Source: Branchiostoma floridae
Lineage: Eukaryota > Chordata > Leptocardii > Amphioxiformes > Branchiostomatidae
DNA length: 64,000 nucleotides
Reading direction: 5' to 3'
NCBI RefSeq assembly: GCF_000003815.2
Contig: NW_023365773.1
Coordinates: 440,882 to 504,881, forward strand
The stretch's first letter is position 1. Each line of letters opens with the position of its first letter. A program made the position numbers and the translations under genes. The notes under the pieces are model-generated. The model saw only the letters and a list, made by a program, of their open reading frames with translations, did not search any database and was not told where the DNA came from. This document shows, in pieces, positions 21,614 through 62,300 of this stretch.

Positions 21614-24600
21614 CTAAGGTGACATTGACTGTGGGTTATCTGATCTTGGTCCTCTGTGGTTGATCCTAACTGTCTGTTGTCTGAACTTCACATTAATCAT
21701 CCACTCTGTCTCCTCCCTTAACCTCTCCCACTGCTGTTCCTCCCTCCGTACATCCTCCCCACTTGATTCCACAGCCTCGCCCTCATCAGCCAGGCTGCCG
21801 TCATACAGGAGGTCATCAGAGAACCACCGGTAAGCCTTTCCCTTCATGGTTCTCACAAAATCTCTGACCCTCTCAGCACGGAACCTGTCCCCAAACAGGC
21901 TGACTCTCACCACATCTGTCCTAACCTTCAACCATGCAACTATGGTGGGGAGGGACTCGTCACTGAGGGAATTGAACCCGATATATATGTAGGTCAGTTT
22001 GGAGAGATTTATAAAAACCTCAACTAGCTCTTTAACGTCAGACAACTTGTTATGAGTAAGGTTCACATCCTTGAGATTCTGACATGATGCAAGACCTTCA
22101 GCAAGACCAAGTTTGGGAGGGGAGGTAAGAAGTCTCCTCTGTCAGACAACTTGTTAAAATTCAGATTTATCTTCTTCAGGTTTTGACATGAAGTAAGTCC
22201 TTTACGAAAACCTGGTACTGCCTCATCACTAATGGAATTGTGACTGAGATCTATCTCCTCCAAGTTGGGGAGGGGAGGTAAGAAATCTCCCCTGTCAGAC
22301 AACTGGTTATGACTAAGATCCACCTTCTTTAGACTCTGACATAAAATAAGACCTTCAGCAAGACCAGACACTGCCTCATCACTGATTGCATTCTGACTGA
22401 GGTCTAACTCCTCCAAAAGTGGCAGGGACGGTAACTCTGTCATGCACAGGAATCTAAATTTCAGAATATTCAAGTTTTTGCACGATCAAAGACAACGCTT
22501 TGACTGTAACTTTGCAGTTCTTGTCACATCACCTGTTGACGGAATCTTACTGCCAAAAACTGATAACGTTCTGAGAGACGGGGTGAACGGAAAATATGCA
22601 GCAATTTTAGAAAAAGCCTCAATATCAATCCCACCCTTTTGAATGCTGAATGTTTGCAGAGATGGACAGTGCAGAAAGTATTGTTGAATGAGGTCGACTT
22701 GTAAAGCACTATCCGTCCGTTTAAAGTTCAAGTCCTCAACAAACATTGGTGCAGTGTGGAACAAGGGCAGATAACTTAAGCAACGAATTTGCTTAGGATG
22801 ATTGGCATTTTTGGCAGATTTGGATTTGCTGAATGGATACATTTTGAGGAGGTTTTTACAAGCCAAGTTGCCGGGTAACTTTATCTCTGTAATTGCTGTG
22901 GTGTTGAGTTTTGTCAGACTGTGGAGCCCATGGAAGGAAATTTCTGGGAGAGAAACCAAGTCAAGAGTTTTCTCCGGGAACAAGGCTTCTATGACTGGAG
23001 TCAGTAAGTCTACCTGTTTTGATTCGACAGTGGAAGTTACAACATGTAATATGTGATTAAATGCTCCAAGTCCTGCATCTGACTGAATGAGCAAGTTCAC
23101 AAACGGAAGTAGGTGGACTCTATTGTTGTCGCATTTGCCCAGCAAATGGGCAACGATGTTACAACTGAGAGGAAGAGCAGCTGATTTTTCCACAAAATCT
23201 CTTAGCTGTTGCTCTCCCTCTGTACCTGCTAGAACCATGTGTACTAGCCATTTTGCAATGAGGAATTGCCGTATGGAGTCGTGAACAAACTTAAAAGAGC
23301 CATGTTCACCGGATGATGGTTGCAACAACCCAAAACTTGAGTGCTGAACATCATCCCACTCCAGCTGACCTTGATGCACAAGGCACGTCTTGTTGTTTGA
23401 TTCGTTTTCATAGGCTGTTTTTCCCAACAAAATGCAAAGAATTTCATAGGAAGACTCGAATTTTTTCTCACTCGTATCATTTTTGGAAGAAAACTTTCTT
23501 GCACACACTTTAGCTACATACACTACGAATTCTGATAAAGTGTCAGGAAAACTTTGACATTGTTTCCAGTATTCACACAAGTAAGAGTGGAAAAAACTGT
23601 CCCTGATGAGGTGCTTAGCTAGTAAGTTACTTGGCCAGCTCTCCTGGACGACCCTTGCTGTATCTTCATCAGTCTTGAAGAAGTCCTGGAGACAGTCATG
23701 CCAGGCCAAGGCGTCTTCACCGGTCGGATATAGGGAGGGGCTGGCCGGGATGCTATGTAATGCTGAAAGAAAATAGGGGCAACTTTTACAAAAAGTATAT
23801 TAAAGCAATGTCTCTAAAAATGCATAAAAGAACATTGTTACAACCACAATGTACAACGTGTAATTTTGTTAAAAACGGATCTATGATATTAGAATTGCAA
23901 CACGGTAACAAATAGCTGTGCCCCTGTGTGGTGCTGTAAGAAATATTTTTTTCAAATTTTATGAAATGTATATAAAGCCTCTAAAGATGCCCATAACAAA
24001 ATTGTTTCAACTACAATGTACAATGTACAATTAAAAAAAATCACAGCCAATTGATCGGATATGATAATATATGAAAAACAGTAAGGATTGTCCAGACTAA
24101 CTTATACATTAAGTACCAGAATCCAAAGATATGCTCCCATCATCCTCGGAAATGGACCCTCCCTCCTCGTTGCCATGGCTACTACCTGATTCTGATCCTG
24201 ATGTCTCGCTGTCAGTGCCATCTGATGACCTGTCATTGGAAGTCTCCTCATCTAGGGTCAAGAGGAATGTATGGGGTTATTATGGCTGCCATCTTATCCC
24301 AGTGATAAATACGTAATATCTTTCGAGATGATATAATTTCTCACAAGGTAGATAGATAACGATAAAGATCTGAGAGAGAGAGAACTGGTTTATTTAAGCA
24401 CACACACAATGCCAAGTACAAGATGATAGTCTGAAGACTAGATTGCTTCGTACAATGTACAAAAGAGACTGGCGCTTAAAAGTCTAATAAAATGTCCTGC
24501 CTAAGTGCATTAATATAATAATAATCGTCACTTAACTGTACAATTTGAAAGTGTGGATCTACACACACATATATGTATATAAAATAAGTAATAAAGCCGA

Positions 24601-28226: not shown

Positions 28227-31200
28227 CTAAGGTGACATTGAGTGTGGGTTATTTGATCTGGGGCCCCTGTGGTTGATCCTAACTGTCTGTTGTCTGAACT
28301 TCACATTAATCATCCACTCTGTCTCCTTCCTTAACCTCCCCCACTGCTGTTCCTCCCTTCGTTCATCCTCCCCACCTGATTCTACAGCCCCACCCACATC
28401 AGCCTGGCTGCCGTCATACAGGAGTTTTCCCCACCTGTAAGCTTTCCCCTTCATAGTCCTCACAAAATCTCGGACTCCTTCAGCACTGAACATGTTGCCT
28501 TCCAGGTCGACTATCTCCACATCTGTCGTAACCTTCAGCCATGCAGCTATGGCAGGGAGGGACTCGTCACGGATGAGATTGTAATCAATATCCACACGTG
28601 TCAGGACGGGAAGCTTGATGAAGGCAGCTGTCAGTTCTCTAACATCAGACAACTTGTTATAACTAAGGTCCACATTCTTCAGGTTCTGACACGAACCAAG
28701 ACCCTCAGCAAGACCAGGCACTGCTCGATCACTAATGGCATTGTCACTGAGATCTATCTCCTCCAAGTTGGGGAGGGGAGGTAAGACGTCTCCCCTGTCA
28801 GACAACTTGTTAAATCTAAGGTTTACCTTCTTCAGGTTCTGACATGAACCAAGGCCTTTACCAAGACCAGGCACTGCCTCATCACTAATGGCATTGCGAC
28901 TGAGATCTATCTCCTCCAACAGAGGCAGATGTTGGAACATCTGAGTTGAGAGTCTTATCATGTTGTCCAATGACCAGTCCATCAGCTTCAGCTTCTTTAA
29001 CACATGTCGCACTCCATACAGCTGGTTGATGTGTTCAGCTTCCTCCTCTCCCTGACAGCTGACACAAAGTGCTAACTCCTGCAGGTTGGGCAGCTGTGGG
29101 AGGAACTGCAGTAGAAGGTGGACTGCAGTAACGGGTAGTGAAACATCCTGCCAAGAGGATTCGTTTTGTATGAGATCAAGTTTTGTTACCTGGCTGGCAT
29201 CTGTTCTGCGTGTGAGGAGAGACCAAAGGTCGTTAAATATGTCATTATTGTTTCTAATGTCCACCTGCAGCTGTTCGAGTTGTTCTAGCAACAGCATCAG
29301 TGCCCCTTTATTGGAGATGTTATTATCGGAGAGATTGACAGTCCTCATGTTCGGACATGAAGCAAGGCCAGCAGCAAGACCAGGCACTGCCTCATCATTA
29401 ATGGAATTGTAACTGAGATCTATCTCCTCCAAGTTGGGGAGGGAAGGTAAGAAGTCTCCCCTGTCAGACAACTTGTTATGACTAAGGTTCACCTTCTTGA
29501 GTTTCTTGCATGAGCCAAGACATTCAGGAAGACCAGGCGCTGCCTCATCACTAATGGCATTGTGACTGAGATCTATCTCCTCCAAGTTAGGGAGGGGAGG
29601 TAAGAAGTCTCCCCTGTCAGACAACTTGTTATGACTAAGGTTCACCTTCTTGAGTTTCTTGCATGAGCCAAGACATTCAGCAAGACCAGGCGCTGCCTCA
29701 TCACTAATGGCATTGTGACTGAGATCTATCTCCTCCAAGTTGGGGAGGGGAGGTAAGAAGTCTCCCCTGCCAGACAACCTGTTATGACTAAGGTTCACCT
29801 TCTTCAGGTTCTGACATGAACCAAAACCTTCGGCAAGACCAGACACTACCTCATCACTAATACTGTTATGACTGAGATCTATCTCCTCCAGGTTGGGGAG
29901 AGGAGGTAAATCTATAATATGAAAATAAGTAAGGTTTAAAATATTTAAGTCCCTACATAAAGCAAGGCATCTAGCTGAAACTAATTGTGCGTTCCTTTTC
30001 ACGTCTTCTAGTGATGAAGATGAAAACTTTGTGTTATGAAGGGTTAATGTGCTGAGAAATGGCGCGAATAGAAAATACGGCGCCATCTTAGATAAACCGT
30101 TTATATCAACCCCTTTCATTTGAACGGTAAGTGCTGCCAGTAAGGGACAGTGCAAAAGGTACTTCTGAATGTGATCTACTACCAAGGATTCATCAGTTCG
30201 TTTGAAGTACAAACTCTCAGCATGCCGTGATTCAGTCTGGAATAAAGGCAAGCAGCTTAAGCAGCGGATTTGTTGGTAATGACTGACACTTTTGGCAGAT
30301 TTTGATTTGCTAAATGGATACATTTTAAGTAGGTGTTTATATTTCAACTCGCTGGGTAACTTTATATCTCTAATGGCTCCGCTTTTGGACATGAAATTTG
30401 TCAGACTGTGGAGCCCATGGAAGGATATTTCCGGGAGGGAAAGCAAGTCAAGAGTTTCCTCTGGGAACAGGGACTTTACAGCTGATGTCAGTAAATCTAC
30501 CTGTTGTGATTCCACGGTTGTAGCTACAACATGTAACATGTGATCGAATGCCCCAAGTTCCGCATCTGACTGCATAAGCAAGTTCACAAACTGAAGCAGA
30601 TGGTCTCTATGGCTGTCTGATTGGCCGAGAAGATGGGCAACAAAGTAACAACTGAGAGGAAGAGCAGCTGATTTCTTAACGAAATCTCTCAACTGTTGCT
30701 CCCCCTCTGTATTTGTTGTAACCATGTGTACAACCCACTTTGCAATGAGAAATTGTCTTATGCTGTCATGTACAAACTGGAAAGAGCCAGTGTTATCATT
30801 ACCCTGAGATGCGGGCTGCAGCAGCCCTAAGCTAGACTGATGGATATCATTCCATTCCAGCTGGCTTTGATGCACAAGACACTGCTTGTTGGTTGATTCA
30901 TTCTCATAAGCTGTTTTTCCCAACACTAGGCAGAGACTTTTAAATGCAGTCCCGAATTCTTCCTCACTTACATTAATTGGGGAACACAGCTGTCTTGAAC
31001 AAGCTTTTGCTACAAAGTCCACAAATTCTGATAAAGTATCAGGACAGTTTTGATACTCTTTCCAGTATTCACATAAGTAAATGTGCAAAAACCTGTCCCT
31101 GATGAGGTGCTTAACCAGTAAGTTACTTGGCCAGCTCTCTTGGATAGACCTTGTCGTGTCTTCATCAGTCTTGAAGAAGTCTTGTATGCAGTCATTCCAG

Positions 31201-31630
31201 GCCAAGGCGTCTTCACCAGTCGGGTACATGGAAGGTCTGACTGTTCTGCTGTCTGATGCTGAAAAGAAAGAAGAGTAAATTTTTGTGTCCAAGATGACTT
31301 ATGAAAATAATCAAAGTATCTACGAAGCACGAAGTCTCTATGCACGCACGAATATATCACAACAATTAACAATGGAAAAAATATAATTGTAGCGAAACAA
31401 TGACATCTTAGCCGATGGATAGTAATATCTGCACTAACTTACAAAATTAAAGGAATGGTCAGACGAACGTGTACATCAAATATTGTTCCATTTACCGGTA
31501 TTCTCAGATGTGCTTTCATCTTCCCCCAAAATAGCTCCTCCCTCCTCGTTACCATGGCTACCACCTGACTTCGATCCTGATGTCTCACTGTCAGTGTCAT
31601 CTGGCGACCTGTTATTGGAACTCTCCTCGC
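28227..31630 (-). CDS. Module 4: exons 21-22, NACHT C-terminal part and LRRs
   Basis: Exons 31630-31496 (acidic DDTDSETSGS) and 31258-28227. The large exon starts YPTGEDALAWNDCIQDFF. It then shows features of the second half of an NLR NACHT module: a P-T-L-x-E-F/L helix (CPDTLSEFVDFV), LGKTAYE as in winged-helix domains, FVHDSIRQFLIAKWVV matching the FxHxxxQEFLAA signature, and CYFVAHLLG. No Walker A or B motif precedes it. LRRs follow, partly as 51-residue double units (LPNLEEIDLSHN plus LKKVNLSHNKLS) with a 153-bp DNA period. The C-terminal tail (DFVRTMKGKAYRW, then a charged region) is shared by all three paralogues here. Confidence 0.8.
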
Positions 31631-34600
31631 CTGGGATCAACAGGAAATATGCAGTTGAGTTGAGTTGATCTACCATATGACCCCAGCCTTCTGATCCCAG
31701 TACGATCCTTAGTTTTCATCTTAAAGACATATGCATTACGGATAGTAGTTACTCAAGTAACTGACTGTGATTTGGGAAATGTATTGTAAGTATATCACAT
31801 AACATACACATTATCATTTGCTCCAAATGTCACATATTCTAGATGAAAGTCTTTACAATTGTTGTAAACTATGACAAATGGAATTCTACTCGCATATTCA
31901 AAATTTAAAAAAAAATCCAGATAAGTATAAGTCGAAGAAGCAAGCAAGAAAACGCACGTGTCTTAATGTTAAATAGAATGTTCTTACCCGCGGTGTGGAA
32001 ATAGTTTGGCCGGGGAACCGGGATGGGAGAGACAGTCGAAGTCAGTCCGGGACTTGTTGGTGCGTTGCGTACTTGGACCGTGTTTGCCAGTGCTCCAGCT
32101 TGTGGGCTCAGCCTGGCTGTGGTGGTCAGCGTTGTGGAGTGCATCACTTTTCCGGTAGGTGTCGTCATCAGGAGGGTGTCCATGTTTTCTTTCGTGGCGG
32201 ATTCGTCAATGTCTATCGTTGCTGAGCGCGACAGCAACATTAGCTTGATGTCGAGACAGTATGGAGCTGGACATGTCTGCTCTTGGCACCGTTTGGCATG
32301 GTAACAACAAAGAGCGATCAACTGTTTGCAAATAGGGCAGCCACCATCGGTCTTTCTCATGCAACTCTTATAGTGCTGCGCCACACTTTTCATACTGGAA
32401 CAGTTAGGTTGGCTGCAGTCTGCATCTTGGCACTGGCAGGCATGGATTAGTGTCTGCATGCACCGCTGATTGGCTTCACGTTCGGCCTCTTCTTTACTAA
32501 TAGTAGGCTCTAACGTGTCTACATCGCTCGGAAGGCCCCACTGCATTTCGTGCGAGTGTCCTTTCTTCTTGTAGCACACTACACATAGGTTACAATTCTG
32601 TGAAAAGGAAATAGAGACATTGTTGTTGGAGATCAACACATAATCAATGACTTATTCTATTCTTTTGTCTACAAATATGACTCATCGATATCAGTAAATG
32701 ATGCCCTATCATCACTACCATCATTCTTCGATAGTAATGTTTTATTCACCTTGCCACCTGAACAAATGTAAGAATATTCTGGATTCATCGTCTGCTTGCA
32801 TGAGGTACAGGTCATGGTAGCGGCAATGGGCCCAAGATTCTGTAAGAGTAAGAGTAATAAGGTTACATAATGGTATCTTCAAATACATGTTCGATTCAAG
32901 AAAGATCTAGAATGCATTTTATATCACCAGGACAGTGCTACTTATTCACAATATACATGACACATTTACAGATTCAGATCATTTTCCCAGAAATTAATGA
33001 GACACGCTATTCAATGCATAACCAAAGCAGCATACAATGCATCAAACAGACTGGTAGTATAGCAATATGTATCAAAGACGTTTTTGTCAGAAGCAAATTA
33101 TGAATCGTACCTCATTTTCCGGTACTTCTGAAGTACTTCTTGTCACGAGAGCTAGACAAAATACAAATAGGTAGAATGGTCTTATTATCTCGTGAAAGGT
33201 CGTCGCCTTGCAAAACGGCCTGCCGTGCCCAGTGTGCGAAAAGCATTGTCTCTGCGTCCTTTCTTTATTCTAGCTATGGCATCTAAACAACCTGGAATTA
33301 TCCATCGGTTACATACCTTGTTTGAAACTCTTATTTACCTTTCAAAATCAGGCTTTACTTAATTCCGAACGACCACGTGAAATCACATCATTTCATATTG
33401 TGAAAAGCAAAAAGCTTATATAAGATATCAACAAAACGCTCTGACTTATTGGTCTTTTTTTAACGTTGTGAAAGCACATAATTCCATACTGTAAAAAGCA
33501 AAAGCTCACAAAAATATAAGAAAAAAATCTATGCCTCATTGGTCTTATTTAACAACATCTGATTGATCTAAAACTCAAAATCACGATTTACTTACAATGT
33601 AACTCCAAACAAAAACCACGTCAAAGCAGTTCATTCCATGTTGTAAAAAGAAAACGTTTTTCATAAACAATATTGGCAATAAGCTGGACATATTGATCTT
33701 CATTATAACATTCATAAAGCTTCCGAAACACCGTAAAAATCCGTGTGTACAAATTGCCGCCTATGACATGCAAGCAGTAGAGTCTTTCCCTGCTTTAAAA
33801 AAGACGGTTCCATAGGGAATTGCCAACCCCTGAGGGAATGCATTTGTGCAATTTTCTAAATACTTTCAAAGCAATCGTAATACTGTAAAAATGCCTCCGC
33901 TCCAAAGGCGTCGCCAAAAACCTTCGTCCTTTGGCGTGTGAGGGTAATGGCGATTTTTAAAGCTATATAACGCACGTTTGCTGGCGTCTTCAGCCGTTCT
34001 GAGTTTGGCTAAAGTTGGAAGAACGCAGCTGGTAGGCCAGCAAAAACAATATGTTTCCATTGGATACATTAATATTTAATCTTGTGATCTCACCATAATT
34101 TGTATCTCCATCTAAACTTGACCCGTCGACTTTATCATCCCGACCTTTCCCCTTTGACCCCCTTGAACCGTCATCCACATCCTTCTGGAACAGTGAACCG
34201 GTCTCTACTTCATCTGCGAATAAAATGTTGAAATAAAGGAAATATGAGTAACTGTCGCCACTTTATTTGTGAATAAAACAAGATATGCGCAGATTTAAAG
34301 GTATTGCGTTAACCTTAAAAACACAAAACATCACTCCATTAATGCACTACCTGCTATCTGGTGCAGACCAGCTGTCCTCAGTCCCATCGACAAAGTGGCA
34401 AGTGTTGCTCCCCACTGTTCCCTCTGTACCCACTCCCCCAGGCACTGTTTTGCCTGACGGTTTGGGGGGTAGGATCTGCTGATTCTGCCAACGTCAGTAC
34501 TGCTGAATCCCAGCTGTAAGGCTAGCCAGGTCCAGTTGTCCTCAAGTTTGTTGGCTATGAGCATCAGCTGGTCATCGAAATCTGGAAAAGTCAGAGTGGT

Positions 34601-37600
34601 TTTTATTTTGACCCTATACACTTGTAATCAAACAAACGCTGCCCCAAAATGTTTCGAGCATCGACGTTTTGGGACACACTACGTTGCTATGTGGTATCCT
34701 ATTTCATGTCAAACAAATTGCTTGCAACTTTATGTGAAGACTCGTGGTTTAAAAAGCTTAGCGATGTTACTTAGACTTAAGATCATCATTGGTGTACAAC
34801 ATAGCACATTACCTGGGTCAACTTCAAACTCTGGTTCTTCTTCTCCTGAACTGCTGTATACCGCTGAGATGGAACTTACACTGGCGTCAGACTGTTCATA
34901 CTTGTCAGAGAATGGCTTGCCTAGGGAAGGGCACACCAGTTCAATCAAAATTAAGGTACCACCATATTAGTGACCGTTTCATGTTAAGAAATGTACCTAT
35001 GCCAGGCATCTGTTGCATATGTTTAGTTCCTGTCATCTGTGCAAGAACTCAATGAGCACAATATATACAATTACAATATACTACGTATGTTGTTGTAACT
35101 GTAGTCAATGTTTATTCAAGTAAACTTACAAAGAACTCACCTTCTGGCACCAGATGTTCATCTCCCTCTGAGTCGGAACTTGCTGAGTCAGGAAGGTCCC
35201 TCTCGTCATCTACAAGACAATAAGCATGAATTGAATTCATGATGATGTTGATTTACCCTTTAAGGTTAGGCTAGTCTTTTATTAAACTACCTATTGTTTC
35301 AGTGCCTAATGCTTCCTTTTATCTATCTACCTGTCTGTAGGTCATAAAAAGACTATTGCTTTTCTCTGTAAATGTGACTAATTACCTCTGAACATATCGC
35401 TGAATAACATACCATCGTCCCTCTTGGCGTTCCTGTTGTCTGATTCCTCCTCAGAGCTGCTGGAACTTGCCGGTTTGGCTGGTGATGATTTTTGTGCGGA
35501 GGATGAAAGAACCATGAGATGACTTTACCATTCACACGTGCCGGGTATTATATGAAGAAAAAAACATTTTCATTGCAACATTGTACGGTTTATCTTACAA
35601 TCAACACATTTGTGTCTGAATGAAGTATTGACTTACGACCGGGACTGGTCACATCCCTGTCGTCATCTGGCTTCTCTTTTGCAGCCCCACAATGCTCTCC
35701 TGTCACAAACAGCTGGCCAGAAGCTGCTGCATCTGCACGGCAAGACGATACCATATAAATATGATATTTCACTATAAGAAATAAAACTGATGGTACTAAT
35801 AAAAGTGTTAGCAAATCTCGGTGTAGAGCTCTACTATTACTATCATGAACTCGTTTGAAAGTCAACTATTTCTGGAATGGCAACGGCAAATAACTTATAT
35901 CATGACTGCATGAATCTGCCTTAGATCATATATCTTTGTTGAATTTAAAGAAAATCACCTGCAACCTCGTGTATCCCAGCATCCCTCAGGGCCTGCACCA
36001 GCTGTTCCAGCGTGACGTCACCAACGTTCCTCTCCATCCAATCACAGATCAGCTGGTGAGGACGGAGGGAGGGGGGCAGTCTGGCTGTCAGGTCCCGGAT
36101 GTAGTCAGTGTTGAAGCCGAGAGATGAAGCCAGCCGCTCCCACATGGAACCCAGATGGTCAGCAATGGCGGCAAACTGTCTGTCTAGTTCTGTAAATCAT
36201 GTATGACAGTAGTTTATATGACCAATGTTCACAGGCTGGGAACGCTTAGATACCTGGTATCAGTGTCTAGGGATAAGGATGTTTCGAACAATATAACATT
36301 AAAGTTTATCATCATTTTGGATGCATTTTAATTATAACTATGTGTGTTTATTACTTTGGTAATAACAAAGTAATAAACAAATACAAACAGTTAGCTACTA
36401 TTCATGAAACTGTCCTATCATATCATTTTTGTTCGACTCAATTTAGACATGATTATATACCTGATTCCACCTTCACTTCCGGCTCATCGGTGTCCATTTC
36501 TGTATCGAGAATAGAGAAGGTAAAATAGCTAAATTTGATATCAAATATAAATACCTTATATACAAATCACAAATGTAGGAATATCATTAGACAAGACAAA
36601 CTGTATTATGAAGCACATTTTATAGCTTTAAAGCTCATCCTGAGATCATCAAAATAATTTCTATACACTGATTACCTGATTTTACTGTTCCCATCATGCA
36701 ACAGGACGGCACCTGTTCAGCTGGCTCCTGCTTCACCTGGATGACGTCATCACCACCTGACACCTGCTGCCCACCTGTGCCATCACCATGGTAACCAGGA
36801 GACGTGTCGTCACCATGGTTATTGCTGCCCGGTGCAGGAGGACCCTGTCCTGAATGTTCCCGAGATGGACCAGGATGTGGGGGGCCTCGGCCTGCTGTGC
36901 CACTCGGGTCTGAGGAAAGAGTGAAGAGACGGGGTCATTAAACACGTTAAAGACAATTTTCCTACAAGTCAGATGTTTTGTAAAGTTTTGATTATAAAAG
37001 GAAGGGGATAATTAGACCTTGGAATTGCTTTACGGTGTAAAGGCACCTGTTTGACTTAGCGTTTAAATGTCAATTTCGGATCTCTGTTCGTGTATATCAA
37101 AATAAAGTTTACTGTCCATCACTAATAGCAGTTCAGTTCTGTAGACCAGTTCTGAAGCAGGCTTAGGTTTCGCACTTGTGAAGTAGCGCTTGTGAAGTTC
37201 CTCTGTCAGTAGTCTGCACAGCTGTTCTCCTCGAGTTGGAGAGAGTTACTTAGACAGATGATGTTACATGAAAAGATGACTCACCCTGGCTTGGGAAGTC
37301 TCCGTCCTCTGTGGCAAAGTCCAAGACTCGGACATGTATGTACAAGTCTGCTCCTCCCTCTGCTGCCCTCATGTCGTCTGTGATCAGTTCCTGGGTCAGG
37401 GTGTCGGACAAGCTTCCGTCACCGTAGCCTCGCCAAAATGTGTCGTAGCAGCCGATATCGGAGAAGTCAAGATGGCAGAGAACACACCCTAGCTCTGCTT
37501 TTCTAAGGGCAGCCTCGAATCTTTCAAAGCACCTCATCATTTTGTGCAACGTGTATCTGTGTTTCTTGTCAAAAAGCTGTCTTTCCAAGATTTTGTTGGC

Positions 37601-40600
37601 AACTTCTGCAATTTTGTCATTTACACGCTTCTTAATTTCTGATTTTACTTGGATGGAAAGTTTTGCTTTTTTGTTCTCTGTTTTGATAACAATAGAAGTG
37701 AACGACTCCAAGTCTTGGACAGTTTGAGTAAATTCCTCTAAATTTGTATAAGCCTTATCATCAAAGGCTTCTTCACCCATTTTAACAATGGCATGATATA
37801 TGCTGTCTTTATTTGGGGTCTTATTTTCCACCTTTGTATTTACCGCATTTTTAGGAGGCTTTCTCCATCTAGTAGAGTCTGTGGGGAAATAATTCTTGTT
37901 AGACATGCCCTCTACCTCAAAACCACTTGCATTCACGCCAAATTATCTTTTAAATCATTATACAGTACATTAAAACATGCTTTAAAATAACATAACGAGA
38001 ATAGGGCGACTTAACTTCTGAGACAGTAAAACAAAGTGTTTTGAGCCGTTTCCACATGCTTTTGGTTAAGTCATAGACAACTGCTCAGGGACATGCTGAA
38101 TTGATATACTCTTGCAGAATAAAGGGCACAACGATGCAATGTGTGGTTGGTAACTTATGGGATAAATCAATGGATTATTTTCAAATGATTTTAAGTTAAG
38201 CATCGCAACTACCATACCTTTGTCAGAATCTGCTTCTGCGGCACTTGTTAAACTCGATGATTCATGGTGCTGACTTGACCATGACGTTGTCGAGTTCGTT
38301 TCATAGCCATTGTCATTCGATCCATTCATATATGGGGTTCCGTTGCCGCTTACTCCCTTTCCCTTCACCACTTTGACCATGCCATTTGATTCTATTCAGA
38401 CAAAATGAAACAACCGGCCCGTTAGGGCAAAACATTTCTCCAAATTTAATATTAAATGTCTTATATTGCCGCTAACATGTTCCTCTTATGGAATCAGAAC
38501 AATAGTCATAGCTGATGTCTTATCATGGGGATGCACAGCAGCTCAGTACAGAACTGCCCAACGTGTGTATTTGCAGAATACGTAAAACAAAAGTAAAGCT
38601 TATGACTCACCTGCACATGGTACATGGTTGGACTGTTTTGTTTCCTGTTTTAACTGAATCGAACATCCGCATGGATCTTGGGTCTTCCTCATCTTATGAG
38701 GGTGCCCTGTTACAAGAAAAGGAGCATTACTGAGATGCAACAAACACAACGATACTTATATCATATAACGTAAAAGTTAATGTGATACATGTGACATTAC
38801 ATTGATATCGAAAATCACTCTTAAAGTACTTGATTCCCACAACAGTGGCATTTATAGTACAGTAACTTTAATCTTCTGTGACTCTTAGAACAACGGGAAA
38901 TGGTACTAAAGGGGAATAACATACCTTTCCAGTGTAGGTTGTGCTTAGGAATGCATGCAGGCTTCTCTGTGTTGTCAGGATCAATGAATCTGTCCAGCTC
39001 ATCTGTTGATAGTAACAACAACATATTAGGTTCACTCTCAATTTCCTTTTTGACTGAAGGAAGTATCATATAATAGGGATGATAACTATACCATTCAGAG
39101 GTACTTTTATACATAGGTACGAGGTTCGTGTACAAAGTTTCTAACAAGCCTTATAGGTTAGTACCCTTGGCTTGTTATCAAAGTTTAAAAAAAGTTTGAG
39201 TCTACTTCTTATCATTTTGCTCACCTGCAGTATTCTGAAACCCTCCCCCCCTGAGAGCTTGTGCCAGCTTGACCCTACAGGCCTTCCTGCCGCGCCTGTC
39301 CCTCCACAGCTCCAGTGCCTGTAACGCCTGCTGCTGTTTGCTGTGGGGCTGTCTGAGTTGTATGGCGTGTATGTCCTGTGCTGTCAGACCCAGCTGATCT
39401 TGTGCAAACTTCACCCAACTGGACGCAACAGCTTTGGCAACAGGTGGGAAATACGTGTGGCTGGGGGCAGGTCCTGGTTCTGGAAAAGTGGTAATCCGCA
39501 ACTTATATGTTAAAAAAAGGTCTCAATTTTAAGAGTTTGAATCAATCATGCTTTCATTTAAAGAGTCACAGTGTTTATATCAATGCATTTATTGAAATGA
39601 TGAAGTAATCCACGTATGAATCAAACAAAAAGTAAAATATGTCCTGCGGGCCCGGTTATATAACCGGATGCACATGCTGTGCCTGTGTACGGGTCCGGTT
39701 ATTTAACCGGTTGGGGGTATTCCCCACAGGAACCTTTGTGGCTTCTGTATGGTAACCAGGAACAGCTGGGAAGAAGATGGGGGCTGCATGAATGGGGTCA
39801 AGGGTCAATATCCTGGTTGCGCAATCAATCCCAGAGCTCTTTGCGGGCATAAATTATGTTAATGAACCAAGATGGCCGACTGTCGTCTGCAGATATGTTT
39901 TTTCATGTTTTTTTCGTGTTTTGGGGCATAAATTCTTAGTTAAGTCGCTAAAATGTCAAAGTTAACTTGGTAACAAGTGCATAAGGAGCCTTTCCCCACT
40001 GATTCCGAGGCAGAACATCCAATTTTGGGCAAGAATGGTGAAGAAATGCTGCCGAACATGAGAAAAGAAGATATGCACGTGAACTTTACCATTTTTATGG
40101 AAAATTACCCCCCACGCAACAGGAAACGAATTAGGACAGTCTGTCAAGCTGCAAATTCGACCTTGGTTACTTTTGTGGAGGTCATTGAGTACCTTGATGT
40201 GGCAAATAATTAGTGACAGATGGAGCTGATCATATGTTACATTATTCTATTTGACAGCCTTTTCAGCACCCAGGGCAATACCTAGCCATAAACTTAACTG
40301 CAGTGATACCTGGGTAATTTTTTTTGCTGCATGTGTGGCTCTGATGTTGTCAGCATGTCATAGGGATGTCGCAGTGTTGATACTAAGATTATTTATGAAA
40401 TTCAGGTATTATTGATACAAAAGTTTATGAAAATAACTTGTTTTATTGATTTATTACCCTTGCATATCATTTTATGACTCAGGGTCAAACTTTCAAGACA
40501 TTACTTAAAAGTAGAGACTCTCAGCTTTCTATTGATGTATAACATTATAGGGTTACTTAAATGCAAAGTAAGTAAAAAATAGCAAATTAAAAGCATTTCC

Positions 40601-41835
40601 CATACTTTGAAGAGAGTCAAAAATGCCCAGCACAGGGAGGGTATATGGGTAAAAAATTGCCAGCAGGACAAGGGTTAGAATGTCCGACTTACCAACATGA
40701 CGATCACTCCCCATCGACGACGAGTTCTCGGATGAATCTTCCTCCTGGGATTGCTCTCCTTCCCTTTGTCTTTTTCTTTTTCTCTTCCTCTTCGTTCTGG
40801 CTTTCTTGCCTAAGAGACGAGCAAAATGCTACGAAGTGATCTTTATCTATATTTGCATAATGTATCACAGGGATGGAAAGGCAAGTAATGAATGAACCGG
40901 TACATGATGCATTGAACCAAGTAACTTGAGTTTCCTGTTATGATCACTTTTATTGGCAAAGTTGGGCAAAAACAGTTGATTGTTTTCTGAAAACCTGAAC
41001 CAAATTATCAGCTGTGGTTGCAGAGATGACAAACACACCTTCTAATCTCTCGGCTGTCAACCGTTCTTCAATGCTGATAAGTGCCTGCTTCAGAACCCGT
41101 AGAGTAGCGCCACTTCCCTCCCTGTTTCTCCATCTGTCCAGCATCTCCCTGCATCTATGGTCAGGGCTGGGTTCTGTGGTCGCGATTCCTTTGATCTCGT
41201 TCCTGTCGAACCCCAGCTCACGGGCCAGGTCATCCCACTTGTGACTGACCTTCTTGATTACTTTGTCGAAACATTCCTTCACGTCACCTGGAATGCATTG
41301 GGTCTGTCATGAATCCATAACTGAATGTTTCATAATTGCATGTATTTTATAATTTAATGTTTCATAGTTAAATGTATCATGAAACAAAATTATGTCATGT
41401 TTATATAACTTTATGTCATAATGGTTATTTTGGAATTGTTTTTTCATACTTTGTTGTCTGCATTAACGACAAGTAAATGTCTGCATAACCACACATTCAA
41501 GGATGCACTGTACACTTTTTGACAGCCATGTCTGTGCATTGACAGCAAGTAAATGTGTTTAAACATGTTTTGCCATCCTACCTAGTCTCTACCAGACTTC
41601 AGCCAGGCCTAATAGGGGACTTTGGCCAAGTTATAGGAATAAAAGCCTAGTAGGAGTAAAAGTTGCCTAGGAGTGTTGGCCAGCGACCTGTAAAGCCTGG
41701 TAGAGGCTACACCGCACCAACGCTAGATAGTAAATTTAAATAATCAATAGAGATATGTCTTCCTGAGCAATATCATTGTATAATGTTGTAAAGATTACCA
41801 GCAGGACTGCGCATGTCCGGTCCTTCCTCTGCCAT
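28227..41835 (-). CDS. Composite Death/TRADD-N/ZZ-TAZ2/NACHT-C/LRR protein, 22 exons
   Basis: The exons listed in the next four entries join into one frame of 6702 nt, 2233 residues, from ATG 41835 (context TCACCATGG, a strong Kozak) to the stop at 28227. Domain order by approximate residue: Death 13-95, Death 140-219, TRADD-N-like 395-520, Death 625-701, Death 815-891, ZZ finger 955-1000, TAZ2 1010-1110, NACHT C-terminal helices 1240-1480, LRRs from about 1660 to 2130, conserved tail. Twenty introns whose phase I could determine in the Death/linker/LRR part are phase 1 or border the ZZ block; two are phase 0. Death and TRADD-N domains bind like domains in TNF/NF-kappaB-type signalling, TAZ2 of CBP/p300 binds transactivation domains, and LRRs sense ligands. 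The combined role is unknown. I know of no described protein with this order. Confidence 0.8.
31988..33151 (-). CDS. Module 3: exons 18-20, ZZ and TAZ2 zinc fingers of CBP/p300 type
   Basis: Exons 33151-33111, 32839-32750 and 32597-31988. Exon 19 starts the ZZ finger (CTSCKQTMNPEYSY), exon 20 continues it (NLCVVCYKKKGHSHEMQWG) and enters TAZ2 (RCMQTLIHACQCQDADC, GGCPICKQLIALCCYHAKRC). The three TAZ2 HCCC zinc sites are present. In the ZZ finger the fourth cysteine is lost (CSGGK here, CSTCE in the 59-kb paralogue), while a new Cys appears at NCNLC. After TAZ2 comes a Thr/Pro-rich stretch to FHTAG. Intron phases entering, inside and leaving the block are 1, 0, 0, 1. Known role of CBP/p300 TAZ2: docking of transactivation domains; ZZ: peptide or SUMO/histone binding. 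Confidence 0.85.
34094..36909 (-). CDS. Module 2: exons 9-17, linkers and two further Death domains
   Basis: Exons 36909-36676 (Gly/Pro/His-rich, ending near VKQEP), 36499-36461 (EPEVKVES), 36189-35959 (Death: MWERLASSLGFNTDYIRDL), 35732-35637, 35478-35413, 35209-35141, 34920-34813 (Ser/Glu-rich, SSSGEEEPEF), 34581-34351 (Death: WTWLALQLGFSSTDVGRI) and 34213-34094. Every exon is symmetric 1-1. VKQE and VKVE both fit the SUMO consensus (hydrophobic-K-x-E). The short acidic exons between Death domains look like flexible spacers. Confidence 0.75.
37285..41835 (-). CDS. Module 1: exons 1-8, two Death domains and TRADD-N-like domain
   Basis: Exons 41835-41799, 41287-41039 (Death: KWDDLARELGFDRNEIKGI), 40809-40693 (basic KRKRKRKR then acidic), 39479-39225 (Death: QLGLTAQDIHAIQL), 39002-38925, 38706-38611, 38391-38218 (Ser/Asn-rich) and 37878-37285. 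Exon 8 has a charged helix (KKRVNDKIAEVANKILERQL) and then a region resembling the TRADD N-terminal domain: strand GCVLCHLDF, helix FWRGYGDGSLSDTLTQEL, strand LYIHVRVL, parallel to the strand-helix-strand of TRADD-N. All introns are phase 1. The same exon order and similar lengths occur in the divergent gene at 51384-55077. The basic exon is a likely nuclear localisation signal. Confidence 0.75.
39640..40640. other. Intron 3 repeat-like block with paired palindromes
   Basis: CCGGTTATATAACCGG (39652-39667) and CCGGTTATTTAACCGG (39695-39710) lie 43 bp apart, followed by about 900 bp of unfamiliar sequence with one 78-residue open frame (39977-40213). It may be a relic DNA transposon; I cannot name it. 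Confidence 0.35.
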
Positions 41836-51383: not shown

Positions 51384-54300
51384 TTGACGTCGAGAAATAT
51401 TTCGACAAAGTTATGAAGAAAGTAAGCCACAAGTGGGACGACCTGGCCCGGGAGCTGGGGTTCGACCGAAACGAGATCAAAGGAATCGCGACCACAGAAC
51501 CCAGCCCTGACCACAGGTGCCGAGAGGTGCTGGATCGGTGGAGAAACAGGGAGGGAAGTGGAGCTACTCTACAGGTTCTGATGCAGGCTCTCATCAACAT
51601 TGGTGAACGGCTGACTGCGGAGAGCTTAGAAGGTGTGTTAAACTGTGTTATCTTTGTTTAAATACAGTGTTATCACAACGTCCTGGTCTTAGACAGATTG
51701 CACTGCTATTGTCATGATATCCACCCGTGCCAAATACGTCCTGTTTTGCGAATAGTGATAACAAAATCATAGACATCTTTTTCGTGGCACTGGCATCTTC
51801 GTTCATTCATTACTTGATTGTCCCCTGCCCTGTGCCGCATTATAAAGATATGGGTAAAATTGCTGAGGAGTCTTTGTCTCATCTCAACATTTCTTAGGCA
51901 ACAAACCCAGAAAGAAAAGGAAAAGAAAACGGAAAAAGAAAGCAGAGCAGATCCAGGAAGAAGACTCATCAGAGGAGTCATCTCTGGTGGGGAGTGACGC
52001 TCACGCTGGTAAGGTTGGCGTTATGAGATTTGTCATCTTTGTTAACTGGGAACTCAGTGTTTATTTTGATAAATGCATCTATATATATTCTGTGACTGCT
52101 GAAGTCATCGTATGTCGCATAACGTAAGGTACTGATTCCCACTTTTCCAGGACCTGTCCCCAGCCGCACGTATTTCCCACCTGTTGTCAAAGCTGTTGGG
52201 TCTTCATGGGTGAAGTTTTCAGAAGATCAACTGGGCCTGACAGCACAGGACATACACGCCATCCAACTCAGACAGCCTTACAGTAAACAGCAGCAGGCGC
52301 TCCAGGCCCTGGAGCTGTGGAGGGACAGGCGCGGCAGGAAGGCCTGTAGGGTCAAGCTGGCACAAGCTCTCAGGAGGGGAGGATTTCAGGACACTGCAGG
52401 TGGGCAAACTTATATGTAGTAGTCTCAAACTTCTACCCCTGTTTTTGAGTGTTGATAACAAGCCAAGACATCTATATGTAAACTAGTACCTTTGTACACT
52501 AACCTTGTGCTTATGCCAAAAAGCAACTGGATATGATTTTGGAAACGGTCAGACGTTTCAACTAGCATCCACTAGTTTTCCTCAATGACACTGAAGTGAT
52601 CTGGAAGAAACAGGTCTTTTATACCCTTACTATGATATAGTATGAATGAAGACAATAGGAAACATGTAAGACAAATTCAGGCTAAAAGACAGTTTGGATT
52701 CAACTAGAAAACAAAGGTAAGGCAAAGTCAAGCTGAAGACAATTTGGGATTTCAGGGTATAAACGACCTGTTTCTTCCAGATCACTTCAGTGTCACTGAC
52801 GAAACTAGTGGATGCTAGTTGAATGTCTGACCGTTTCCAATATCCAGTTGCTTTAGTAACTGCTTTTTGGCGTATCTTGTTACCTGGATGTCTAACCTTC
52901 ATCGACCATAACCTCGTGCTTATTTATCCAACCGGCTACGAAGGGAATAGTTCGGCATCACTTGTATTTGCTAGTTTCTTAAGTCAAAATGGAAATGAGA
53001 TCGAGAGTGAACCCAATTTTGCTGTTTCTACCATCAGACGAGCTAGACAGATACATAGGTCAAGACATCACTACCAATGGGATCAGCACAGAGGAGCCTG
53101 CGTGCATTCCTGACCACAGCCTACAATGGAAAGGTATTTTTTCGACGACGATACTCTTTGTAGGAATTATTGAAAGACATTACAGCAATATATCACAGTT
53201 ATTGGAAATTAGGCAAATTTAGAATGATTTTCAAACCAATGCAACAGGACGCATGTGCAACCAATTTCGTTTCATGTCATTTTTTTTCAAAAGTGACATT
53301 GTGTTTGTTAGCATTTTCAAAAATGATGCCCTTTTCCTGTACCAGTGCACCCTCAGAAGAAGAGGAAGACACAAGATTCATGCGGATGTTCAGTTCAGTT
53401 AAAACAGGAATCAAAACAGCTCGACCATGACAAACGTACTGGTAAGTCATACTCTTGACTTTTGCTCGACATACTCCTGTAAATACACACTTTGTAATAT
53501 GCTATGTAATGGCATCAACTATGACATCAACTAAACAATAATCTATTGTGTTTTTTTCCAGTAGAGAAACATGTAAAAGGCAATTTGAGAAATGTCAGGA
53601 AAGGATTAATGCCCCATTTTGTCATAGAATCAAATGGCACGAACACAGTGGTCCAGGGAAAAGAAGTCAACGGCGACGGAACACCGTATCCAAATGGGTG
53701 GAATGGCAATGGCTGTGACACAAACTCGACAAGTCAGCACTATGGAGCATCGAGTTCAACTAGTGGGGAAGAAACAGAGTCTGACAAAGGTGCAGTTACT
53801 AGTACTACAGTTTAGATGGTTGTAAAAAAAGATAACCTGTCATCCATTACTAAGCCTCCCTTCATTGTTGCATAAGTCATGCTTCATTCCTCCTCCGAGG
53901 AAGATTCTGGGTTATCTGTTTACCTTCATGCAAGACCATATCTCTGTGTGTGCAGATTACTCCTTGTTATACATGATTTTCCTCTGGTGAGGTAGACAAG
54001 AAACGGTGTTGGCAGCAGCTAAGATCTGTACATACGAGACTATGATTCTCCAGGTAACCACGATGTTAAATCTAGAATGTTGTTTATTTTCTGTAGTACT
54101 TTCTTCCACACAACAAGCAAATGTCGGACTGGAACGAAGACGGAAACAACAGGATAGAAAGAGGAAACAAAAGAGAAAGCCGGGTAAACTGAGTATGGCT
54201 GCAGGACAACAAAAAAGGATAAAGCTGGACCCTGAGACAAGGAGGACATCTGAGTCCATAAAAGGTGCACCTCTGATTAATCTAGATACACTGGAAATAT

Positions 54301-55077
54301 GCCAAAATAGTTACATGTAAAATAGTTCAAGTTAAAACAGTTATGCTGCAAAGTCACAAAAGCTTGTAATATCTACTGTTAAAAGTCTATGAATAACATA
54401 CAATGTGTGTAACGATACTTATTGTTGTGTCATTTCACATTTTAATACATGATTTTCTCACTTTACAGATGAAGCGGAGAAGAATGGTTCATCGGCTGCC
54501 AAACATGGCTGCCATCCTGATCAGACTGTGCCAAATTTTTTACTTGATGACAAAAACACCATTTATCACACTGTTGTTGAGAATGCTGAGAAAGTTTTTG
54601 ACAAAAAAACTGTTCAGGATTATCGTGAATTTCAGAAATGCGTAAAATCACTGAAGGAAATTGCTTCAGCTGTACCTGATGATGATAGGTATAAACCAAA
54701 GCTTACGTCTGGGGCAAAATTGAAAATAAAGAAAAGAGTTAATGATAAGATTGCAGAAGTAGCTCAGGTAATTTTCAGAGGTAAAATACTTGATCGGAAA
54801 AACAGACAATCATATCACAAAATGGCGAAGTGCTTCAAACGATTCAAAGCCGCACTGAGAAAAGCAGAGGCAGGATGTGTGTTTTGCCATCTTGACTTCC
54901 CTGATGTCGGCTGCTATGACACATTTTGGCGAGGCTACAGTGACGGGAGCCTGTCTGACACCCTGACCCGGGAACTGATCACAGACGACATGAGGGCAGC
55001 AGAGGGAGGAGCAGACTTGTACATACATGTCCGAGTCTTGGACTCTGCTACAGAGGACGGAGACTTCTCGGACCAGG
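51384..55077 (+). CDS. Divergent Death/Death/TRADD-N paralogue, 3' end missing
   Basis: Exons 51384-51632 (Death), 51898-52008 (basic RKKRKRKRK-like, then acidic), 52151-52399 (Death), 53038-53133, 53346-53441, 53562-53789, 54097-54264 (RRRKQQDRKRKQKRKP) and 54469-55077 (TRADD-N-like). All are bounded by AG/GT and all introns are phase 1. Exon order mirrors exons 2-8 of the 41.8-kb gene, with identical lengths for the first (249) and for 53346-53441 (96). The lysine/arginine-rich exon 54097-54264 has no counterpart there. No exons for the later Death domains, ZZ/TAZ2 or LRRs follow before the gap at 55346 and the LINE relic, so the gene is truncated, or continues in unassembled sequence. If the 55078 donor is not used, the frame ends at 55142. 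The first exon is unsure; 49695-49710 is a weak candidate (MAENH, phase 1). Confidence 0.75.
52513..52896. mobile_element. Long-hairpin MITE, copy 2, in an intron
   Basis: Arms of about 110-130 bp (GCAACTGGATATGATTTTGG to GAAGAAACAGGTC, mirrored from GACCTGTTTCTTC) around a 140-bp centre. Same family as 8681-8911. Confidence 0.8.
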
Positions 55078-59362: not shown

Positions 59363-62300
59363 TTAGGGAACAAACGGAACACGAGTGTCAGGAGAGAGAG
59401 CCAACCTAGAGCGCAAATTTTTTGATCTGCGACCTTCGTGGTCAATCAAAACCCGCAGCTGACCGACCTTCACGCGTATCCAACTTTCCTCCCTCCTCAG
59501 CCTCTCCCACTGCTCTTCCTCCCTCCGTACATCCTCCCCACCTGATTCTAAAGACTCGCACACATCAGTCTGGCTGCCGTCATACAGGAGGTCATCTGAC
59601 CACGTGTACGTGTAAGCCTTCCCCTTCATTGTTCTCACAAAATCTCTGACCCCTTCAGCACTGAACCTGTTAAAACGCAGCCAGACTCTTTTCACATCTG
59701 TCCTAACCTTCAGCCATGCAGCTATGGTGGGGAGGGACTCGTCATTGATGGAATTGTACTGAATATCTACACGTGTCAGGCAGGGAAGTTTGATAAATGC
59801 ATATATCAGTTGTCCAACATTAGACAACTTGTTATGACCCAGACCCACCTTCTTCAGCTTCTGCCATGAACCAAGACATTTAGCAAGACCAGGCACTGCC
59901 TCATTACCCATGTTATTGTGACTGAGATCTATCTCTTCCAAGTTGGGGAGGCGAGGTAAGAGGTTTCTCCAGTTAGACAACTTGTTATCACTAAGGTTTA
60001 CCTTTTTCAGGTTCAGGCATGAACCAAGACTTTCAGCAAGACTAGGCACAGTCTCATCACTAATACCATTCTGACTGAGATTTATCTCCTCCAAGTTTAG
60101 GAGTGGAGGTAAGAAGTCTCCCCTGTCAGACAACTTGTTATGACTAAGGTTCACCTTCTTCAGGTTCTGACATGAACCAAGACCTTCGGCAAGACCAGGC
60201 ACTGCCTCATCACTAATGGCATTCTGACTGAGATCTATCTCCTCCAAGAGTGGCAGGGAAGGCAACTCTAGGATGTTGATACATCTAAGCTTCAAAATTT
60301 TCATGTTTTTGCATGATGCAAGGCAACGCCTGGACAGTGACTTTGCATTACTTTCCTTATCCTTATTTAACCAACAGTGTTCTCCACGTACATCTAAGGT
60401 GGTGAGCGATGGGGTAAAAAGACAATATGGTGCGATCCTAGAAAAAGTGAGAATATGAGTCCCTTCCTTTTGAATGCTGAGTGTTTGCAGGGACGGACAG
60501 TGCAAAAGGTACATCTGTATGTGGTCAATTTTCAAGGCTTTGTCATTCCTTTTGAAACACAAGGTACTAACAACCCTACTAGTCTGGAATAATGGCAGAT
60601 AACTTAAACAGCGTATTTGTTCGTTGTGAGTGGGGTCGTTGACGTCTTTTGATTCACTAAATGGGTACATTTTGAGTAAATCGTTATCTTCTGACTTTCT
60701 GGGTGCCTTTATTTCTGTAATCACTCTGGTCTTGGACATGAAATCTGATAGGCTTTGGAGCCCATGGAATGAAATGTTTGGGAGGGAAAGTAAATCAAGA
60801 GTTTTCTCTGGGAACAGGAACTTTACAGCTGAAGTCAGTAAATGTATTTGTTGTGATTCTACGGTTGTAGTTACGACATGTAATATATGATCGAATGTCT
60901 CAAGTGCTGCATCTGTCTGAATGAGGAAGTGCACAAACTGAAGCAGGTGGTCTCTATGGCTTTCTGATTGGCCGAGCAAATGGGCAACACAGTAACAACT
61001 GAGAGGAAGAGCAGCTGATTTCTTCACAAAATCTCTCAGCGGTTGCTCCCCCTCAGTATTTGTTGTAATCATGTGTACAACCCACTTTGCAATGAGAAAT
61101 TGTCGTATGCTGTCATGTACAAACTGGAAAGAGCCAGTGTCGTCATGATCCTCAGATATGGGCTCTAACAGCCCTAAGCTAGACTGATGGAAATCATCCC
61201 ATTGAAGCTGGCTTGGATGCACATGACACTGCTTGTTCTTTGATTCATTCTCATAGGCTTTTTTCCCTAACACTAGGCAGGTAGTGTCACAGGCGGACTC
61301 AAATTCTCCATCACTCACATTATTTGGGGAAGAAAACATTCTCACCCGCCACATAGCTACAAACTCAACAAAGTTTGATAATGTATGAGGAAAGTGTTTA
61401 TACTGATTCCAGTATTCACACAAGTAAGAGTGGAAAAACCTATCCCTGATGACGTGTTTAACTAGTAAGTTACTTGGCCAGCTCTGCTGGATGGACCTTG
61501 TCGTGAATTCATCTGTCTTGAAGAAGTCTTCGATGCAGTCATTCCAGGCCAAGGCGTCTTCACCAGTTGGGTATAAGGTCGAGGTGAAGGTACACTGTGG
61601 CATGTTGACTTGTACATGTGTTCCTGCAAACAAAATCGCAATTGAAATGGGCGTAAATCTGTATGATATTCTGTACATTTTCGTCAGCGTCCTCTGTCAT
61701 AGAATTTTCACAATACTGTTAGGAAGGATAAGAAGAAAACTCTCTTGAAAAAATATGTGGATACACCTTTGGAGATACAAACGTTTACACCATACGAGGC
61801 AAACAAAATAACGCACAGTCCACAAACTTATACAACACAACGTAATGCACAGAATATGATACAACGAAGGAGGTTAACACATTTTAGAACACAAATCAAG
61901 CAACTGGATAAAGTCAATGATGAGTGACGTTTCCTATCGCATTTACTGCGATCGTTCATGAGGATTCTGAAACACATGACTTGTTAGAGAATTTATCATA
62001 TTGCTGAATCTATTTTATAATCTAACTTGAATCGATGCAAATTACATATTGTTATGTACCCAGGGTTGTTCTTCATTTGTTTGGCATTCAGTCTGGGGCA
62101 TGCTATTAGGTAAATAGGATGACTGACAAGGAGACTAACCCTTTACGTTCTCTTCGTGTAGCGCCTTATCTATGGTTGCCATTCGTTGACGCAACATCTG
62201 TGCTTGCTGTAACCTTTGCTGTAGCTGCTGCTGCTGTAATTTGTGCTTGATGTTGACACAGAATGGTACAGGGCACTTCTGCTGTTGGCAGTGTTTGGCA

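Follow-up and report, generated by a model that had tools for sequence, protein, structure and literature searches.

A predicted gene with a CBP-derived ZZ-TAZ2 module in a Death/TRADD-N/LRR array of Branchiostoma floridae

Introduction

A stretch of 64,000 nucleotides of the Branchiostoma floridae contig NW_023365773.1, hereafter the window (C215:440882-504881, inside a 513-Mb, 431-contig genome whose other contigs are designated likewise), raises the question of whether one gene, here called gene B, can join Death domains, a TRADD-N-like domain, the ZZ and TAZ2 zinc fingers of CBP/p300 and leucine-rich repeats (LRR), and of what such a protein might do. The original prediction, made from the letters alone, had proposed this join together with a partial NACHT, and had compared the product with CIITA. 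The best reading, which we hold tentatively, is that gene B belongs to an array of Death/TRADD-N/LRR genes, and that its product is probably nuclear and carries an integrated, CBP-derived bait. Support at the sequence level comes from the architecture, the CBP origin of the module, its presence in a second gene of the array (gene D), and ratios of nonsynonymous to synonymous substitution rates (dN/dS) below 1 in the compared pairs.

Exon model and domains of gene B

Rebuilt from its splice sites, gene B comprises 22 exons on the minus strand, from position 41835 to 28227 of the window. Its 6753 coding nucleotides yield 2250 residues in one frame with a sole, terminal stop, and AG precedes and GT follows each internal exon border. 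The predicted exons, junctions and uninterrupted frame are retained, but not the length of 2233 residues. All introns are in phase 1, except for both introns flanking exon 19, which are in phase 0. The phases do match as predicted, yet they are weak evidence on their own: any phase-1 exon fits any other in frame, so that the open frame by itself does not prove a single gene. Runs of N are absent from the 28-42 kb region and occur within the window at 47.4 and 55.3 kb. The exons are as follows, the paralogues (genes C to H) being those of a 200-kb comparison tile (C215:400,001-600,000).

41799..41835, minus strand: exon 1, start codon (MAEEGPDMRSPAG); a counterpart was found in genes D and H alone among the tile's paralogues.
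41039..41287, minus strand: exon 2, Death domain 1 (62.3 bits in Pfam, scored on the open frame); seven paralogous exons, dN/dS 0.09-0.28.
40693..40809, minus strand: exon 3, a basic stretch resembling a nuclear localization signal, and an acidic stretch; the basic stretch is found again in paralogues.
39225..39479, minus strand: exon 4, Death domain 2 (Pfam 37.1 bits); five paralogous exons.
38925-39053 and 38611-38706, minus strand: exons 5 and 6, linkers with psiKxE motifs.
38218..38391, minus strand: exon 7, low-complexity linker.
37285..37878, minus strand: exon 8, TRADD-N-like domain (Pfam TRADD-like_N below cut-off, paralogous exons above it).
36676..36909, minus strand: exon 9, Gly/Pro-rich, with a VKQEP motif.
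36461..36499, minus strand: exon 10, short, with a VKVE motif; genes D, E, F and H have a short exon like it at the corresponding place (relaxed threshold).
35959..36189, minus strand: exon 11, Death domain 3 (Pfam 40.2 bits); 95-99% identity in genes D, E, F and H.
35637..35732, minus strand: exon 12, linker.
35413-35478, 35141-35209 and 34813-34920, minus strand: exons 13, 14 and 15, acidic linkers with no convincing paralogue.
34351..34581, minus strand: exon 16, Death domain 4 (Pfam 39.7 bits); 62% identity in gene G.
34094..34213, minus strand: exon 17, acidic linker, common to gene G.
33111..33151, minus strand: exon 18, short, phase 1 to 0; no sequence match in paralogues; in gene D, possibly an exon of the same phase at the corresponding position (by eye).
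32750..32839, minus strand: exon 19, first half of ZZ, without its fourth cysteine.
31988..32597, minus strand: exon 20, remaining half of ZZ, then CBP/p300 TAZ2 (zf-TAZ 42.9 bits).
31496..31630, minus strand: exon 21, acidic linker.
28227..31258, minus strand: exon 22, a region of ~400 residues with no recognised fold and no ATPase detected, then LRRs and the stop codon.
29372..29909: a 153-bp unit in 3.5 copies (92% matches) within the LRRs of exon 22.

Pfam analysis reports hits above cut-off for Death in exons 2, 4, 11 and 16, for zf-TAZ in exon 20 and for LRR families in exon 22, which bears out the predicted Death domains and LRRs; of the other families proposed for the protein, TRADD-N and ZZ fall below their cut-offs and NACHT returns nothing. 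Exon 8 itself scores 20.6 bits against TRADD-like_N (cut-off 23.7), but two exons located at C215:594 kb and 556 kb share 34-36% identity with it over 169-174 codons (E 2e-30 and 3e-32), and both pass the cut-off. The TRADD-N label therefore stands through these two homologous exons, and gene B displays two features of TRADD-N immune proteins, the TRADD-N domain and its coupling to the Death superfamily, here with four Death domains. The ZZ domain, obtained by joining exons 19 and 20, scores 17.6 bits in gene B (cut-off 21.4) and 34.5 bits in gene D. A search of the whole genome for the ZZ family gave 12 matches, none of them at the loci of genes B and D or at the CBP locus on C7, probably because an intron splits the domain. 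No acetyltransferase, bromodomain, KIX or TAZ1 match was reported by Pfam in residues 1-1718 and exon 22 of gene B.

Origin of the ZZ-TAZ2 module

Exon 20 matches solved CBP in the PDB with an E-value of 1.1e-40. The genome possesses its own CBP-like gene on C7, in which ZZ-TAZ2 is followed by a Q-rich tail; the module is 63% identical to this CBP in gene B and 77% in gene D. In all three genes, ZZ is split by a phase-0 intron at the same position, after TVCE in CBP, STCE in gene D and SGGK in gene B. Downstream of TAZ2, gene D continues with 25 further aligned residues of the CBP exon, 22 of which are identical. At the sequence level it is clear that the ZZ-TAZ2 exons descend from the CBP/p300 of this same genome, and because the phase-0 ZZ intron of CBP is kept, the capture occurred at the DNA level. 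The predicted ZZ-TAZ2 label is accordingly upheld for TAZ2, with its zinc ligands and CBP origin, but only in part for the ZZ of gene B, which is incomplete and below cut-off.

In a tree of seven TAZ2 sequences, those of genes B and D and two copies on C2 stand apart from CBP (support 0.955); B groups with D weakly (0.24), and the longest branch is that of B, at 0.36, compared with 0.11 for D. The two CBP-derived copies on C2 (C2:30519349-30519567 and C2:30527699-30527914) are each accompanied by a partial TAZ2-like copy nearby. When the array exons were searched for in the DNA surrounding these copies and in 5 kb beside the first, only exon 20 matched well; a single 28-residue match to exon 16 (E 0.034) was returned, and no convincing Death or LRR exon.

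The array on C215

Relatives of gene B form a tandem array on C215. The order Death-Death-linkers-TRADD-N-linker-Death-linker-LRR exon is repeated on the minus strand in genes D, E and F of the tile, while genes G and H contain fewer of the array exons; the TRADD-N exon was not found in gene F, where a gap of N lies at that place. For 18 of the 22 exons of gene B, one or more paralogues of the tile carry a homologue. The ground plan of the array is Death-Death-TRADD-N-Death-region of unassigned fold-LRR, to which genes B and D add ZZ-TAZ2.

Gene D spans window positions 59408-63759 and extends to C215:512.7 kb, with a Death/TRADD-N part, a better-preserved CBP ZZ-TAZ2 and an LRR exon. Its parts within the window are:

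62140..63109, minus strand: ZZ exon (63020-63109) and ZZ/TAZ2 exon (62140-62602) of gene D, borders set by eye from the sequence.
59408..61591, minus strand: terminal LRR exon of gene D.

One gene or two

The claim that exons 1-22 form a single gene was weighed against a division into two adjacent genes, one with Death/TRADD-N (exons 1-17) and one with ZZ-TAZ2-LRR (exons 18-22). Pairing was assessed from genome-wide matches to the first part of exon 22 (at least 27) and to Death exon 11 (at least 22), both lists being lower bounds. The match at 632030-632701 was left out as a second fragment of a gene that was already represented, so that 26 places were compared. Eighteen were kept by a cut made after the pairing of all 26 had been seen: 17 at 46-100% identity, and one on C4 at 28%, which is paired. 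The eight dropped places lie at 20-34% identity and none has a paired Death exon. The 18 include genes B and D themselves, and the places on C11 and C204 share the same score.

Among the matches listed, a Death exon lies upstream, on the same strand and within 6 kb (at 1.0-5.1 kb), in 14 of the 18 exon-22-like places, and within 6 kb downstream or on the opposite strand in none. The four unpaired places are gene A (see below), those at 582 kb and 588 kb, and that on C11, C204 being paired; at the 588 kb place a TRADD-N match is found 3.9 kb upstream. Likewise, six of the seven TRADD-N matches on C215 and C3 sit 2.7-6.5 kb upstream of an exon-22-like exon. The genome-wide zf-TAZ matches include only two on C215, in genes B and D, and therefore no TAZ exon was found between the Death and LRR parts of the other paired C215 genes. 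DNA flanking the start exon is 74% identical in gene D and 92% in gene H, with no further copy in the tile and therefore none ahead of the ZZ-TAZ2 exons. Immediately ahead of exons 18, 19, 20 and 22 of gene B there is no in-frame ATG. Met codons do occur inside exons 19 and 22; gene D has no Met at either place and has another near the start of its last exon.

Because of the upstream Death pairing, the start-exon flank, the lack of a heading ATG and the paralogous exons, one gene appears to be the better reading, and the single-gene claim of the original prediction is favoured by the pairing of paralogues, with a joined transcript as its probable consequence. The division into two genes could draw on the fact that all joins are in phase 1 or 0, so that a chance fit is possible, on the lack of a paralogue for exon 18, on the interrupted order of parts in gene D and on the internal Met codons of exons 19 and 22. 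It would require exons 1-17 to possess a terminal exon of their own, and it is opposed by the pairing in 14 of 18 places and by the lack of a direct start, or of a start-exon flank, ahead of exons 18, 19, 20 and 22. We regard it as very unlikely.

The first part of exon 22

The partial NACHT predicted for this region could not be recovered. No P-loop pattern is present in the exon-22 frame, nor in the frames of at least 150 residues of the tile. Nine family members of the region return no NACHT-type Pfam match (E<=5), and its first part returns no PDB match as a single sequence (E<=1) or as a profile of the nine members (E<=5). Only hhalign reports a weak match with a true NACHT-LRR frame of the same contig (120 columns, 19% probability, E 0.0012, given with no control comparison), which makes the "NACHT tail" of exon 22 a lead and not a result. 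The genome-wide NACHT list (103 of 152 candidates scored) includes a single match on C215, located at 712 kb.

The interval C215:709700-712700 contains a true NACHT-LRR open frame that has a P-loop, with Death matches ~2 kb and a TRADD-N match 5 kb away on the same strand. It is a candidate full nucleotide-binding LRR receptor (NLR) related to the array.

Indications of a nuclear protein

The original prediction described a nuclear or shuttling protein, a location that is only suggested, by a conserved basic stretch and by SUMO-type motifs. The Lys/Arg run of exon 3 is found again in paralogues. Residues 1-1240 of gene B contain seven motifs of the SUMO consensus [VILMF]KxE, a number reached in 2 of 2000 shuffles (mean 1.26), the region and the pattern having been picked after the motifs had been noticed. 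Recurrence was compared for three of the seven sites, in exons 6, 9 and 10. The exon 6 motif is kept in all four paralogues found (C, D, E and F), that of exon 9 also in all four found (D, E, F and H), and that of exon 10 in D, E, F and H. The ZZ domain of CBP is itself reported to bind SUMO-1 (PMC12547938). Together, these features suggest that the protein may be nuclear and SUMO-modified.

Contact surface, charge and selection

TAZ2 of p300/CBP is reported to bind E1A and activation domains, with p53 and STAT1 among its partners (PMC10475075, PMC12547938), and the contacts described for p300 TAZ2 with an activation domain are I1735, A1738, K1760, M1761, R1763, V1764, I1781, Q1784, L1785 and L1788 (PMC9870903). 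Position 1738, an A in this list, was scored as Cys, as found in the matched PDB chain. Identity to p300 at these ten residues is complete in the genome's CBP, and amounts to 9 in gene D, 9 in human CBP, 8 in each C2 copy and 7 in gene B, in which I1735 is replaced by N, K1760 by S and R1763 by S. The net charge over 77 TAZ2 residues is +12 in CBP and in gene D, and +4 in gene B. The zinc-ligand Cys/His are kept in genes B and D at 11 positions, and the twelfth His follows Tyr in all rows of the alignment. The loss of contacts and charge cuts against p300-like binding of activation domains by gene B, while gene D appears compatible with such binding. The predicted direct binding of transactivation domains hence fits gene D better than gene B, which has also lost a ZZ ligand.

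Pairwise dN/dS was calculated according to Nei and Gojobori, without a significance test and over comparisons that are not independent. Matches identical to gene B, query spans of less than 41 residues, Death exons below 50% identity and exon-22 matches starting after residue 20 were left out. In all 44 remaining comparisons between exons of gene B and its paralogues, dN/dS is below 1 (0.05-0.82). For the TAZ2 exon, it is 0.25 between genes B and D (118 codons), 0.16 between gene D and CBP (144 codons), and 0.12 between gene B and CBP (116 codons), this last with a dS of 1.88 that is near saturation.

Proposed mechanism and alternatives

In characterised proteins, the role of Death and TRADD-N domains is to build signalling complexes. 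In the reading that we tentatively prefer, exons 1-22 would be transcribed together and the product, by virtue of its basic stretch and SUMO-type motifs, would reside in or enter the nucleus. The LRRs, the CBP-derived module or both would act as a bait, on which a foreign or stress-induced TAZ2-docking protein would dock instead of on CBP. Docking would then lead the Death and TRADD-N domains to assemble a death or NF-kappaB-type signalling complex downstream. Gene D would keep CBP-like contacts, whereas gene B would have diverged, with its specificity changed or lost. The bait step is drawn by analogy with plant NLRs that carry integrated domains, and we give it less than an even chance. Carried further, the analogy would make these genes an animal counterpart of plant integrated-decoy receptors, in which ZZ-TAZ2 would lure the proteins by which viruses or parasites seize CBP/p300, gene D being the faithful bait and gene B a copy reshaped by an arms race, a proposal that we consider doubtful.

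Several observations weigh against the preferred reading. The fourth cysteine of ZZ, a zinc ligand, is absent in gene B and present in the complete ZZ of gene D, and this loss, like the eroded contact surface of TAZ2, also fits decay. Exons 13, 14, 15 and 18 have no convincing paralogous exon in the tile, and among the paralogues only two, genes D and H, yielded a start exon. The junction in gene D is not clean, because two pieces intervene between its Death and ZZ-TAZ2 parts: an antisense fragment that weakly matches QRICH1 and, at ~C215:505.3 kb, a remnant similar to the beginning of exon 22. Counted over all 26 places, the Death pairing falls to 14 of 26, and it is 13 of 17 when C4 is omitted from the retained set. 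Structure predictions were too poor to use, with a predicted local distance difference test score (pLDDT) of 46.7 for the first part of exon 22 (three window sequences) and of 40.3 for ZZ/TAZ2 (two window sequences).

An unlikely alternative is that the module is a passenger, i.e., that captured CBP exons were spread by duplication and are drifting, gene B working via Death, TRADD-N and LRR alone. The losses of gene B (the ZZ cysteine, three of ten contacts and a net positive charge lower by 8 units), its long branch relative to that of gene D, and the C2 TAZ2 copies devoid of detected Death or LRR neighbours would all agree with drift. Yet gene B keeps the TAZ2 zinc-ligand pattern and an open frame, pairwise dN/dS, albeit untied to a significance test, is well below 1, and gene D is nearly unchanged at the contact set. 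A CIITA-like adaptor, whose TAZ2 would bind the animal's own transactivation domains (p53, STAT or C/EBP types) and redirect or sequester these factors in an immune response, would account for the contacts and CBP-like charge retained by the TAZ2 of gene D, and a nuclear protein of this kind would agree with the basic stretch and SUMO-type motifs. It is decidedly unlikely, given that gene B no longer has the basic contacts K1760 and R1763 and that no CIITA-type NACHT was detected. As for a true NLR in which a NACHT ATPase drives assembly, the weak profile match to part of the NACHT-LRR frame of the same contig is outweighed by the missing P-loop, by the lack of Pfam and PDB matches and by the single C215 entry, at 712 kb, of the NACHT list. 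This explanation, contradicted so far at the level of sequence, is extremely unlikely.

Comparison with known systems

CIITA is an LRR protein with a NACHT that binds CBP/p300. Gene B shares with it the LRRs and a link to CBP/p300 biology, but CIITA binds CBP/p300 whereas gene B carries a piece of CBP and no detectable NACHT. The predicted likeness to NLRs and CIITA keeps the C-terminal LRRs and otherwise loses force, because the related exons examined showed no NACHT ATPase. With the CH3 region of CBP/p300, the module has in common the ZZ-TAZ2 order, the ZZ intron and the TAZ2 zinc-ligand pattern; it differs in that gene B matches neither acetyltransferase, bromodomain, KIX nor TAZ1, and has lost one ZZ ligand and three contacts.

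The closest relatives in architecture may be the TRADD-N expansions of the DEDD2 clade, described in cephalochordates, in which Death-like and TRADD-N domains form the constant part and the flanks vary, with LRRs among the domains that follow TRADD-N (Kaur et al. 2021, PMC8195603). The array resembles them by its Death-like and TRADD-N domains, its LRR flank and its many copies, the number of cephalochordate TRADD-N copies being reported as 46-71 (PMC8195603). The same article proposes that domains were captured at least partly through reverse transcription, unlike the captured piece in gene B, which keeps its intron; domain capture by a TRADD-N gene via DNA and not via reverse-transcribed RNA has a case in point here. 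The main text of PMC8195603 contains no occurrence of CBP, CREB or p300, and its lone "taz" belongs to a YAP/Taz reference. Plant NLRs with integrated domains, as reported in PMC9528084 and PMC4759852, are similar in logic only, as a host-derived domain resides in an LRR immune-type gene. The differences are that gene B is an animal gene, would signal through Death/TRADD-N and has no detected nucleotide-binding ATPase. A host-hub-derived domain is indeed found in gene B, within a presumptive receptor-type gene.

Shuffling of phase 1-1 exons and a very high rate of domain-pair gain are reported for lancelets (PMC4284660), and unusual combinations of domains in amphioxus immune genes were described in 2008 (PMC2575513); the new join is thus a known kind of event. 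Phase-1 exons have likewise moved here, and only the captured module and the kind of recipient gene differ. This join was not found in the literature examined, mostly titles and starts of abstracts; full texts or supplementary tables may record it. With the TAZ2 of CBP, a known docking site of transcription factors and of the adenoviral protein E1A, transplanted with its intron into an immune-type array, an animal host-hub bait becomes directly testable.

Neighbouring genes and other features

Two further array members lie within the window:

21617..24249, minus strand: gene A, matching exons 21 and 22 only, frame interrupted.
51386..55076, plus strand: gene C, an inverted partial copy with Death, Death, linkers and a TRADD-N-like exon.

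Gene A adjoins the 3' end of gene B, with no Death exon found within 10 kb, and may represent a copy in decay or else a 3' cassette used as an alternative. Gene C runs into the assembly gap at 55346-55445, past its TRADD-N-like exon. That C215 might be the second haplotype of a placed cluster was ruled out, the best match to exon 22 outside C215 being 59% identical. An expansion separate from the C215 array occupies C17:18.30-18.90 Mb, where 50 of the 69 TRADD-like_N matches of the genome are gathered in ~600 kb. Lastly, a galactose-3-O-sulfotransferase-like frame (Pfam 282 bits) is located on the plus strand at positions 15364-16782 of the window.

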